Source of the DNA: Natrialba swarupiae
GTDB lineage: Archaea; Halobacteriota; Halobacteria; Halobacteriales; Natrialbaceae
DNA: 64,000 nt
NCBI RefSeq assembly: GCF_008245225.1
Contig: NZ_VTAW01000004.1
Span: forward strand, 1-64,000
Direction of reading: 5' to 3'
Shown: piece after piece, positions 28,734-33,018 of the stretch
Layout of the letters: each line of letters opens with the position of its first letter
Position numbering within the stretch: position 1 is the stretch's first letter
Translations under genes and position numbers: made by a program
Notes under the pieces: model-generated
Seen by the model: only the letters and a program-made list of their open reading frames with translations
Databases searched by the model: none
Told to the model about the DNA's origin: nothing

Positions 28734-28918
28734 CTCACTCCAGTCGCCCCTCGATGTGTTTTGGTGTACAGACGCCGAGTTGAATGACTATATTTCCATA
28801 CCATTTGGCCTGAAAAAGATACCGGAGGTTAAAGTCGATGGTCGGTGAAATCCAAGCCATGTATGACGGTCAATGACGGACAGCCTGTCGAGAACGCGGT
28901 TTCACGTTCCTCTTGACG

Positions 28919-29422
28919 ATGTCTGTCCAGACGAGTAGATCGGATTCGCTGGCGGAAAGCGACGTCTTTCACATTCTGGGTAACGACCGCCGTCGAGCGA
29001 TCGTCCAGCTTCTCGCACAGGAATCGAGTCAGGTCGATGTCTCGGACGTCGCAACGGAGATCGCGGCAACCGAGTCGGATACGTCATCCGTCCCGAACAA
29101 CCTATACAAGAGCGTCTACGTCTCCTTACAGCAGACCCACCTCCCGCAACTCGAGGAGGACCGCGTCATCGAGTATGACTCGGAAGCGAAGACGATCGAG
29201 CCTGGGAGCAACTTCGAGTCCGTCCTGACCTACATCAACGGCCACGAAGACGACCGACCGTCGATCCTCCAGTTTCATCTCGCGATCTGTCTGCTGGGGC
29301 TGATCGTGATCGCACTCGCCGGCCTCGATCTTCCGGTCGTCTCGACTCTCGATCCGGTCCTCTCGAGCGTTCTGGTGTTACTCGTGGTGGCCGCCAGTAG
29401 CATCTATCGGCTGTTGAGTTGA
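28919..29422 (+). CDS. DUF7344 winged-helix membrane protein (copy 2)
   Basis: A 167-residue protein from MSVQTSRSD. The winged helix (VFHILGNDRRRAIVQLLAQ; LQQTHLPQLEEDRVIEYD) is followed by two membrane helices (FHLAICLLGLIVIALAGL and a last helix ending IYRLLS). It has the same layout as the protein at 25032-25562, so the two are paralogues 3.4 kb apart. It is probably a membrane-bound regulator. Confidence 0.7.
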   Translation: MSVQTSRSDSLAESDVFHILGNDRRRAIVQLLAQESSQVDVSDVATEIAATESDTSSVPNNLYKSVYVSLQQTHLPQLEEDRVIEYDSEAKTIEPGSNFESVLTYINGHEDDRPSILQFHLAICLLGLIVIALAGLDLPVVSTLDPVLSSVLVLLVVAASSIYRLLS

Positions 29423-29617: not shown

Positions 29618-32020
29618 TCAGGCGGGGGCGTTGATCATCGGCTTGGCGATTTTATCGACAATTCCCTTGTCGTCGTCTTTGTCGTCGACGTGCTTGTCGT
29701 CAGCGTCCTTGTCGTCGACGTGTTTATCGTCAGCGTCCTTGTCGTCGACGTGTTTGTCGTCGACGTGTTTGTCGTCAACGTGCTTGTCGTCAGCGTCCTT
29801 GTCGTCAGCGTCCTTGTTGTTGACGTTCTGATTATCGGCGTGTTCGGTGTTCGCTGACTGCTCGGTGTTCGCAAGCTCCTCGTTCGATTCGCCGTCGACG
29901 GTGACGACCGCGTCGTCGGTCACCGGTTCACCGGCTACCTCGTACGGACCGTCGTCAGCGCCGTCAGATTCGACGAAGTCGAACTCCTGGTTGTTGTTGG
30001 TGTCGCGGTGAGCCATCGCGATCAGCGTCTCATCTTCCTCGAGTGGTTCGTCGAGCGTGATTTCGACGTTCTCGTGGGTTCCTTCCTCGAGGTACTCCGA
30101 GACACCGATGACGCTTCCGATGACCTCTCCAACGAGGAGGCTGCTGTCGTGGATCACCACGAACCCGCCGCTTGCCATCGTGACCTCGTCGACGACGACC
30201 GTCTGGCCGTCGGAGGCCTGGTCTTCGAACGTCACTTGTGCGGGCTGTGGTTCGTCTTCGACAGGTTCCTCATCGACCGGCTCTTCCTCGGGTTCTTCCT
30301 CAACCGGTTCTTCCTCCTCGACTGGTTCTTCGGGTTCCTCTTCGACTGGTTCTTCCTCAGGCTCTTCTTCGACCGGTTCTTCGGGTTCTTCCTCAACCGG
30401 TTCCTCCTCGGGTTCGTCGGTGAGTTCGAGGATCGCCACTTCACCGAACTCGTCGGTGAGTACCATGTGGATGTACTCTCCAGCCTCGAGTTCGTCAGTC
30501 TCGACGTTGTAGACGACGTCGTCGGTCTCACCGGCGTCGAGTGTTACCTCTTGTGCTTCGACGAGGTCACCCTCGAGTCGGAACTGTACGTCTTGTGTCG
30601 CTTCGTCGTCACCTGGGTTGGTGACCGTGGCCGTTACGGTGATCGTCTCACCGACTTCCGCTGATTCCGGTGCGTCGAGCGCGTCAACGGTGAACGACTC
30701 AGCCGGTTCTTCCTCGACCGGCTCTTCGGGCTCTTCTTCAACCGGTTCCTCTTCAGGCTCCTCCTCGACCGGTTCTTCGGGCTCTTCTTCAACCGGTTCC
30801 TCTTCAGGCTCCTCCTCGACCGGCTCCTCTAGGACGGGTTCGTCCGGAAGTTCGATCAGGAGGAAGACGTTCGCCTGTTCGATGGTTACCTCGAGTCGCA
30901 GGTCCTCGTAGGTTTCCTGCTCGTGCTCGTCGTTGTCGTCAACGGCGTTGTCGTCGACATCATTGTCGTTGTCGTCGACACCGTTGTCGTCTTCGAGGTC
31001 GTTCTCGTCGTCAGCCAGCATTTCCTCGTCCGGCACGTCGTCGAGATGCTGGACGACGAAAATCGTCGCCTGGTTGATCGTCACCTGACGCTCGTCGTCC
31101 TCGAGGTCGTTCTCGTCGTCGACGGCGTCGTCGTTGTCGTCGGCATCGTCGACATCGTTGTCGTCGGCATCGTCGTCGACGCCGTTGTCATCGTTTGCGA
31201 GGTCGTCCTCGTCGTCGAGTTCGTCGTCCTCGAGGCCATCTGCGACGACGAAGATCGTGGCCTGCTCGGCAGTGACGTCCATCTCATCGTCAGCGGTTGC
31301 GTCGTCGTCCTCGACGTCGTTCTCGTCGTCGACGTCGTTATCGTCGGCTTCGTCGTCAGCATGCTCGTCCTGCACGAGGCCGTCCTCGAGCACGACGAAC
31401 GCGGTCGCCTGATCGATCGAAACGTCCGTGTGGTCATCGATGTCGTTTTCGTCGACGGCGTCGTCATCGATGTCGTTGTCTTCGTCGTCGACGCCGTTGT
31501 CATCGTCATCGAGATCGTTCTCGTCGTGATCGACGTCGTCTCCAATCGTCGTAACGGTGGCCTGCTCGATTGTGACGTCGAGGCTGACGTCACTCATTCC
31601 GACTGCGGTGTAATCTGCGTACTCGGCGTTGTCGTCAACACCATCGTCGTTGTCGTCGACGGCGTTGTCATCAGCGTCGTTGTCGTCGACACCATCGTCG
31701 TTGTCGTCGGCGTCGTCAACGCCGTTATTGTCGTCGGCATCGTCATCGACGCCATCGTCGTTGTCGTCGACGGCGTCGTCATCGACGTCGTTATCCTCGT
31801 CGAGTTCATCCTCGTCCGGAATATCATCGACGTCGTGTACGACGTATATGTCCGCGTGTTCGATCGTTACTGTCCACGATTCGCCATCCGCGAGTTCCTC
31901 GTCACTGGCGTCAGTGTCGTGCTCGTCGAGCGCCGCGGGCGCTCCCACGGCCATCGCCCCCGTCGAGCCGACCATCATTAGCACAGTGAGTACTACGAGT
32001 AGCTTTTTGCGTGCGTTCAT
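29618..32020 (-). CDS. Secreted Asp-rich repeat protein with DUF7282 domain
   Basis: An 800-residue secreted protein with a Sec signal (residues 1-27). Residues 48-390 hold six copies of a short beta motif of the type VTIEQATxFVV (near 50, 148, 200, 249, 313, 378), separated by Asp/Asn tracts with DNDDGVDDN units like calcium-binding loops. Two EEEPEEPVEEEP linkers (397-440, 535-590) flank a CARDB-like domain (442-533, TITVTATVTNPGDDEATQDV). Residues 595-705 match DUF7282 (VTFEDQASDGQTVVVDEV; HRDTNNNQEFDF). A pentad tail (KHVDD/KDADD, 736-785) ends the chain. There is no anchor or sorting signal. Role unknown; metal binding or adhesion is a guess. Confidence 0.75.
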   Translation of the reverse strand: MNARKKLLVVLTVLMMVGSTGAMAVGAPAALDEHDTDASDEELADGESWTVTIEHADIYVVHDVDDIPDEDELDEDNDVDDDAVDDNDDGVDDDADDNNGVDDADDNDDGVDDNDADDNAVDDNDDGVDDNAEYADYTAVGMSDVSLDVTIEQATVTTIGDDVDHDENDLDDDDNGVDDEDNDIDDDAVDENDIDDHTDVSIDQATAFVVLEDGLVQDEHADDEADDNDVDDENDVEDDDATADDEMDVTAEQATIFVVADGLEDDELDDEDDLANDDNGVDDDADDNDVDDADDNDDAVDDENDLEDDERQVTINQATIFVVQHLDDVPDEEMLADDENDLEDDNGVDDNDNDVDDNAVDDNDEHEQETYEDLRLEVTIEQANVFLLIELPDEPVLEEPVEEEPEEEPVEEEPEEPVEEEPEEEPVEEEPEEPVEEEPAESFTVDALDAPESAEVGETITVTATVTNPGDDEATQDVQFRLEGDLVEAQEVTLDAGETDDVVYNVETDELEAGEYIHMVLTDEFGEVAILELTDEPEEEPVEEEPEEPVEEEPEEEPVEEEPEEPVEEEEPVEEEPEEEPVDEEPVEDEPQPAQVTFEDQASDGQTVVVDEVTMASGGFVVIHDSSLLVGEVIGSVIGVSEYLEEGTHENVEITLDEPLEEDETLIAMAHRDTNNNQEFDFVESDGADDGPYEVAGEPVTDDAVVTVDGESNEELANTEQSANTEHADNQNVNNKDADDKDADDKHVDDKHVDDKHVDDKDADDKHVDDKDADDKHVDDKDDDKGIVDKIAKPMINAPA

Positions 32021-32057
32021 AGTTGCCGTGAAGGCAGCGGATCAACGCTCTATCACC

Positions 32058-32066
32058 GCATAAACC
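32058..32066 (-). promoter_or_regulatory. Probable promoter of the Asp-rich protein
   Basis: GGTTTATGC on the minus strand lies 38-46 bases before the start codon, giving a predicted short leader. Confidence 0.4.
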
Positions 32067-32164
32067 GGCACATCAATTTCGCCGAGAAACAGATCACTAT
32101 GCATCAGGCGGTCGATTCCGCGTGAGAGGGATGCCGGGAAATGTGTGGTTAGGCGTGTGACCGA

Positions 32165-32659
32165 TCACTCGTTTTTTGACTGTTCCGGCGACTTCGAAGC
32201 GGTCGGCTCGTGGTCTGGCAAACAGACGAGGTTCTCCCGACCCAGGCGGAGTTTCGTTATCCGACCGTCCTCTTCGAGCTCCGCCAGCAGCCGACTAACC
32301 TTCGCTTTAGACCAGTCGACCGAGTCGACGATCTTCGACTGCTTCATCCGACCACCGTTTTCACTGACGAGTTGCTGAACTCTCTCCCGATCGGTCATGA
32401 ACCCCTCGCGGTTGGAGTCACCGACTCCCGTCACCGACTGGCGACTCTCGAGGCGGTTCCGAACGACGAGTGCGCCGCCGAACACTGCGAGTGCCACGAT
32501 CCCGACTATCGCTGCGAGATGTGATTCCTCTCCGGCCACGAGCGGGACGAGGGTCCCGATCGCGACCCACTGCCCAGTCTCGAGCACGTAGAGAACCGAA
32601 TCGGCCAGTGTCGTGGTGGACGGGTTCGAAGCTATCCGTCCACTGAAATGAACAGTCAT
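32165..32659 (-). CDS. Membrane-anchored helix-turn-helix regulator (DUF7343-like)
   Basis: A 164-residue protein from MTVHFSGRI. Two hydrophobic segments (ADSVLYVLETGQWVAIGTLVPL and AAIVGIVALAVFGGALVV) precede a basic/acidic linker and a C-terminal winged helix (VQQLVSENGGRMKQSKIVD; WSKAKVSRLLAELEEDGRI). The arrangement suggests a membrane-bound transcription factor with an outward-facing short N-terminus. It reads in the same direction as the Asp-rich protein, whose gene lies 144 bases downstream, so it may control it. Confidence 0.65.
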   Translation of the reverse strand: MTVHFSGRIASNPSTTTLADSVLYVLETGQWVAIGTLVPLVAGEESHLAAIVGIVALAVFGGALVVRNRLESRQSVTGVGDSNREGFMTDRERVQQLVSENGGRMKQSKIVDSVDWSKAKVSRLLAELEEDGRITKLRLGRENLVCLPDHEPTASKSPEQSKNE

Positions 32660-33018
32660 ATCGTCTATACGTGTTCGAATGCAGTCACTCGATACGGTAC
32701 GATCGGTGGCCACCACCTAAGTAGTTATTATTGGTCATTTGCTCTTTTGTTTTATCTATATATCATATCTAATGAACAGTTCGGGAATTCAATGAGTAAC
32801 GCCGTGGAGACTGCGCTCTCGTCGTCTTGTCACTCGGTTCTCGAGCGCGTTCTCACATTGTCGGACAAAACGAGTCGCAGGTTTTCGACCGAACGGAGGA
32901 TCGTAAATCTTCACTGACTGGTGTCCGATAGTGTCAGCTGCTGTCGATACGGACTCTGTCCCAGTTCCGTCGTAACCGCGATCCGTTCGGGACGGCATAG
33001 TGTCTGGACGAGCTCGGT
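32660..33018. other. Intergenic A/T-rich region
   Basis: No gene in 359 bases. The section 32710-32790 is strongly A/T-rich (AGTTATTATTGG, TATCTATATATCAT), and AATAATAACTA on the minus strand near 32725 could be the promoter of the membrane HTH gene. Confidence 0.5.

Follow-up and report, generated by a model that had tools for sequence, protein, structure and literature searches.

A predicted secreted, extremely acidic modular protein family of the Natrialbaceae with candidate position-specific beta strands on hypervariable spacers

Introduction

The staphylococcal Sdr/MSCRAMM proteins carry folded beta modules on a charged Ser-Asp repeat spacer, the length of which varies between strains, and are attached by a sortase anchor. 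Among the functional amyloids of bacteria, curli CsgA and FapC are secreted proteins in which short repeated beta strands are separated by polar linkers. Here, we describe an archaeal protein that can be compared with both. It is encoded in a 64,000-nucleotide stretch (the window; positions 1 to 64,000 of contig NZ_VTAW01000004.1) of the RefSeq assembly GCF_008245225.1, named Natrialba swarupiae and counted below among the Natrarchaeobius genomes. The protein may work like an Sdr/MSCRAMM protein, but it is archaeal and not homologous, its linkers are rich in Asp/Asn and Glu/Pro, and it has no sortase anchor. It differs from CsgA and FapC, to which it is likened from sequence and model alone, in that its motifs are position-specific, its tracts are extremely acidic, and it has no secretion partners. 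Modular surface proteins with repeat spacers are a known type; the strand module described here is not covered by Pfam.

Literature on DUF7282, haloarchaeal CARDB domains and Natrinema extracellular proteins yielded nothing on the window protein or its function, and terms for adhesion, CARDB, biofilm and secretion are absent from the Natrarchaeobius genome paper.

Results

Organization of the window protein

The gene encodes a protein in which a signal peptide is followed by six strand motifs set in Asp/Asn tracts, a Glu/Pro linker, a CARDB-like region, a second Glu/Pro linker, a DUF7282 domain, a DDK(H/D) repeat and a hydrophobic tail. Asp and Glu make up 40% of its residues, for a net charge of about -300, and it contains neither cysteine nor an N-x-S/T sequon. 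The features are as follows.

29618..32020, minus strand: whole open reading frame, 800 codons, encoding an 800-aa modular secreted acidic protein with orthologues at the same locus
31940..32020, minus strand: signal peptide, MNARKKLLVVLTVLMMVGSTGAMAVGA, Sec-type by inspection, lipobox absent
31832..31876, minus strand: beta motif 1, WTVTIEHADIYVVHD, VTIEQATIFVV-type
31538..31582, minus strand: beta motif 2, LDVTIEQATVTTIGD, with its own signature (VTxIG or VxPV here in relatives)
31385..31429, minus strand: beta motif 3, TDVSIDQATAFVVLE, VTIEQATIFVV-type
31238..31282, minus strand: beta motif 4, MDVTAEQATIFVVAD, VTIEQATIFVV-type
31046..31090, minus strand: beta motif 5, RQVTINQATIFVVQH, VTIEQATIFVV-type
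30851..30895, minus strand: beta motif 6, LEVTIEQANVFLLIE, VTIEQATIFVV-type
30896..31831, minus strand: five Asp/Asn-rich tracts between the motifs, hypervariable spacers (31583-31831, 31430-31537, 31283-31384, 31091-31237 and 30896-31045)
30698..30829, minus strand: first Glu/Pro linker, EEPVEEEP units
30419..30697, minus strand: CARDB-like Ig-fold domain (approximately residues 442-534), for which orthologues pass the Pfam cut-off
30248..30418, minus strand: second Glu/Pro linker
29891..30247, minus strand: DUF7282 domain, predicted beta-sandwich (Pfam and AlphaFold2)
29666..29821, minus strand: DDK(H/D)(V/A) repeat, about ten 15-bp units
29621..29665, minus strand: C-terminal hydrophobic tail, GIVDKIAKPMINAPA, family consensus approximately xx[ILV]Gxxx at the C-terminus

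By inspection, the N-terminus is hydrophobic, ends in an AxA-type site and is near-identical across relatives, where it takes the conserved form MNARNQLLVVLTALMMVCSSGAMVAGA. The initial annotation of this DNA, made from the sequence alone, had called the protein secreted and devoid of an anchor, and the sequence supports both predictions. Neither a PGF-CTERM-type or other sorting signal nor a transmembrane helix was found in the window protein: NCBIfam gave no matches at E<=1, and the hydrophobic residues at the C-terminus are too few for a membrane span. Among orthologues, the last eight residues are 71% hydrophobic or small, with [ILV]G in 32 of 59, and are preceded by an acidic tract. None of the three sibling Natrarchaeobius orthologues showed the DDK(H/D)(V/A) repeat.

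At the DNA level, signal-peptide codons 2-13 (window 31960-32020) keep A-ending synonyms (GCA, CTA, GTA) across genera, as against a third-position GC content of 0.82 in DUF7282 and about 0.8 elsewhere in the gene. Long plus-strand reading frames opposite the tracts (e.g. 30923-31981, 'VVVVDTVVV') were rejected as genes, being mirror images of Asp codons. A low-threshold Rfam search returned only chance microRNA matches, which lie in the repetitive tract and score far short of the cut-off.

Six strand motifs with individual identities

The six VTIEQATxFVV-type copies reported initially are no product of composition: a relaxed nine-residue pattern matches the window protein six times, at residues 49, 147, 198, 247, 311 and 376, whereas 2000 shuffled versions of it average 0.03 matches and never exceed 2. 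Motifs with the same index in different proteins are 0.513 identical, versus 0.414 +/- 0.005 when permuted, and with one protein per genus the values are 0.466 and 0.379 +/- 0.009. Each motif therefore resembles its counterpart in other proteins more than it resembles the other motifs, so that the strands are position-specific. Relatives with three motifs carry VxPV at the place of motif 2. Successive motifs are separated by linkers of 7-107 residues.

The initial annotation had proposed structure prediction as a check. For a compact orthologue, AlphaFold2 returned exactly six strands of 14-18 residues, all at the motifs, with the tracts disordered; confidence in the motif domain was low (pLDDT of about 55-70 at the strands, mean 49.8, pTM 0.37). 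DUF7282, modelled separately, gave a compact beta-sandwich (pLDDT 95). A Foldseek search with the motif model found no PDB match, the best hit having an E-value of 6.5, to beta-helix proteins, and a PDB sequence search with the motif alignment gave none. The model is compatible with a single domain of six defined strands joined by free loops, in which the pairing of strands is hypothetical. We tentatively suggest that the six position-specific VTIEQATIFVV strands form either a beta domain whose 7-107-residue loops expand and shrink freely or an intermolecular domain that builds archaeal extracellular matrix, a proposal that is possible rather than probable. The former would be a fold whose loop length and sequence are almost unconstrained.

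The acidic tracts and linkers are hypervariable

The Asp/Asn tracts of the window protein consist of 46% Asp and 10% Asn. Spacer turnover was judged on between-species pairs rather than on close strains: in 19 such pairs, gaps affect 0-4 residues in each of the signal-peptide, motif, CARDB and DUF7282 regions, versus 47-233 in the linkers. The sequence of the linker units also differs between close species, and one pair gains or loses whole EEDNETVVDEEP units. Such drift in tract length and sequence between close strains is what the initial annotation had named as grounds for abandoning its view of the tracts, and between species it is what we observed, with gain and loss of length and swapping of units beside modules that are nearly gap-free.

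The chemistry of the linkers is Asp/Asn in Natrarchaeobius; elsewhere it is Glu/Pro with as many as 58 N-x-S/T sequons. Dense linker sequons occur in L104, L114, L101, L078, L057 and others (up to 58 per protein), and Natrarchaeobius members have 0-4. Judging by these sequons, some relatives may be heavily N-glycosylated on their linkers. Two loci from another family of the order (L072 and L073) have TTE/ETT-rich linkers together with DUF7282 and a CARDB-like region, showing that linker composition changes wholesale.

CARDB-like and DUF7282 domains

A profile search of the modules, also proposed initially, identified one of the two named domains with certainty. DUF7282 (PF23951, function unknown in Pfam) spans residues 594-707 with E=2.5e-44 and 150.5 bits, against a cut-off of 27, and covers profile positions 1-112 of 112. 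The CARDB-like region of the window protein falls below the Pfam cut-off for PF07705 (22.7 bits), with only Big_3_5 matching, weakly; orthologues at L035 (30.1 bits, E=5.8e-7) and L060 (32.3 bits, E=1.2e-7) exceed it. The region is Ig-like with a strand pattern matching that of CARDB, here joined to Glu/Pro linkers and DUF7282, and DUF7282 itself is found here within a soluble acidic protein bearing an array of strand motifs.

DUF7282 is 67-84% identical across the syntenic family and 47-63% identical to copies in other proteins. A PDB sequence search with its alignment gave no matches, and Foldseek with its model found weak Ig-like matches only (best E 4e-3, TM 0.42); the predicted fold is a beta-sandwich, with no finer assignment. 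Within the domain lies a conserved HxDTNxNxxxDF or DxDTNxNxxxDF stretch, which on sequence grounds is a likelier candidate metal site than the Asp/Asn tracts.

Two further proteins carry related regions. One, in the genome of the window (L070:5733-10163, contig C99 of G000), is 1476 aa long and combines DUF7282 with long VEQxQxAAxGAAxGAL-type repeats and two matches to CARDB; the other, on a contig of a Nanohaloarchaea metagenome-assembled genome (L136), has a weak CARDB-like match at 36% identity.

A conserved locus from which the gene can be lost

With the whole protein as query, 90 of 100 related genomes gave matches to its modules, many of them to DUF7282 in other proteins. The DNA around the best matches yielded full-length orthologues with a near-identical signal peptide. 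Other Natrialbaceae loci share the genomic position, the signal peptide and the modules; the named relatives are Halopiger, Natronorubrum, Natribaculum and Natrinema. The surroundings of the gene in the window are as follows.

32165..32716, minus strand: upstream neighbour, a membrane winged-HTH protein (DUF7343)
32021..32083, minus strand: conserved promoter and leader (CGAAAT...), with a TATA-like element, GGTTTATGCG, about 44 nt before the ATG and a dyad, TGCCTTCACGGCA, at 32024-32036
28913..29422, plus strand: downstream convergent neighbour, a DUF7344 HTH protein

The DUF7343 gene lies alongside the orthologue in all 34 of the loci first collected, most of which also share genes for a small membrane protein and an NAD-dependent epimerase, as well as DUF7344, HTH, PadR and DUF1616 genes on the opposite flank. 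In 40 further genomes, chosen by DUF7343, an acidic modular protein is encoded directly downstream of it in 28; of the other twelve, 10 have DUF7343 directly next to DUF7344, without an intervening gene (L075, L076, L077, L079-L082, L084, L091 and L092). Since orthologues occupy one locus and are missing at intact sites, the orthology is genuine and the gene can be lost, and its absence from some close relatives indicates that it is dispensable.

Across the class, a profile of the six-motif region found members in 15 of 195 genomes, all Natrialbaceae. The order strands-CARDB-DUF7282, for which the initial annotation knew no described precedent, is indeed unusual, occurring among the genomes sampled only in four Natrarchaeobius (that of the window included), but it is not that of the family at large: elsewhere DUF7282 directly follows the signal peptide. 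By strict motif count, members fall mainly into groups with six, three, and one or no motifs. CARDB, DUF7282 or the two together are missing from some members; the totals in this tabulation of architectures are approximate, since the simple patterns used overlook some copies of DUF7282 and CARDB. Motif counts follow the DUF7343 tree better than chance, with 17 changes versus 38 when shuffled on a quick tree with several open forks.

In orthologues, the TATA-like element lies 43-50 nt before the ATG. A dyad, [T/C]GCC-N4-7-GGCA, is found 3-6 nt before the ATG in 59 of 62 orthologue genes, with a loop of variable length, and the combined leader pattern occurs once in the genome of the window. As an RNA hairpin, the dyad showed no covariation across the 62 leaders: its outermost pair lacks compensatory changes, and one arm changes alone. 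Either an RNA stem or an operator would suit the sequence.

Discussion

The best explanation of these data, to which we give about an even chance, is a family of modular proteins that the Natrialbaceae export, soluble and extremely acidic, with a place at the cell surface or in the extracellular matrix and with conserved beta modules on polyanionic spacers. Predicted secretion and modularity are well supported; a surface or matrix adhesion role through CARDB and DUF7282, plausible as the initial annotation had it, is one that we infer, and CARDB alone is no proof of adhesion. In this scheme, Sec would export the protein, its strand motifs would come together in a single beta domain or pair between molecules, and the ligand of CARDB and DUF7282 would be a surface glycoprotein, a polysaccharide or some other protein. 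The linkers, which turn over by the gain and loss of units but keep their charge, would serve as hydrated polyanionic spacers giving reach, hydration and charge, N-glycosylated in some relatives. Their length and charge would matter and their sequence would not, and the best analogy would be with the spacer regions of bacterial surface adhesins rather than with a calcium-loop protein.

Of the other explanations, an unlikely one is a self-assembling matrix fibre, in which the six hydrophobic strands (ATIFVV type) stack between molecules as a cross-beta structure or functional amyloid, with polyanionic tracts keeping the strands apart and the protein soluble until assembly. The motifs are short, hydrophobic on both faces and spaced by disordered polar tracts, six strands appear in the AlphaFold2 model, motif copy number varies, and the biofilm matrix of Haloferax volcanii stains with Congo red and thioflavin T, the protein responsible not being named (PMC4180959). 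However, position-specific motifs that are not interchangeable suit one fold better than repeated stickers, charge repulsion would be strong, and several relatives have one strict motif or none. It is distinctly unlikely that the protein is an envelope-state reporter or regulated surface component controlled by the adjacent DUF7343 and DUF7344 proteins, possibly via the TGCC-N4-7-GGCA dyad. The invariant adjacency of DUF7343 in the first loci, the conservation of TATA, leader and dyad in the great majority of genes and the uniqueness of the leader pattern in the genome are all consistent with such control, but both HTH genes persist at the empty sites and so have other roles, covariation lends no support to an RNA hairpin, and regulation would not account for the biochemical role.

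Quite improbable, in our view, is a specific calcium-binding matrix protein, a reading raised by the initial annotation; DNDDGVDDN units would then act as calcium sites of the EF-hand or thrombospondin type-3 kind, with the bound ion folding or cross-linking the protein. The tracts do resemble thrombospondin type-3, EF-hand and RTX repeats in their Asp/Asn-rich units and in the DxDxDG-like spacing of some copies: DxDxDG..[DE] occurs four times in the window protein, versus 0.70 in shuffles (p=0.006), and 10 and 18 times in two sibling Natrarchaeobius proteins, in which it is likewise enriched. However, this spacing is not conserved even within the genus, being absent from the fourth Natrarchaeobius protein and from four proteins of other genera, and EF-hand and RTX patterns were absent from the proteins tested. 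The tracts vary freely, duplication of units can by itself yield the enrichment, and the better conserved xDTNxNxxxDF stretch of DUF7282 is the likelier metal site. Specific calcium-binding loops are therefore not supported; non-specific cation binding by a polyanion is possible. The least probable alternative, for which we see very little chance, is a polyanionic sponge or decoy, in which the acidic tail outside the cell would serve chiefly to trap cations or cationic peptides, the modules only setting its location. A net charge maintained by composition despite sequence drift would suit a sponge, but position-specific strands and the strong conservation of DUF7282 would be left unexplained.

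The family now has an assignable locus, a promoter and natural variation. Dozens of species offer six, three or one motif, the presence or absence of CARDB and of DUF7282, linkers rich in sequons or free of them, and natural gaps at an otherwise intact locus. Comparison across these species could show which properties of disordered acidic linkers haloarchaeal surface and matrix proteins depend on, and could lead to the function of DUF7282.
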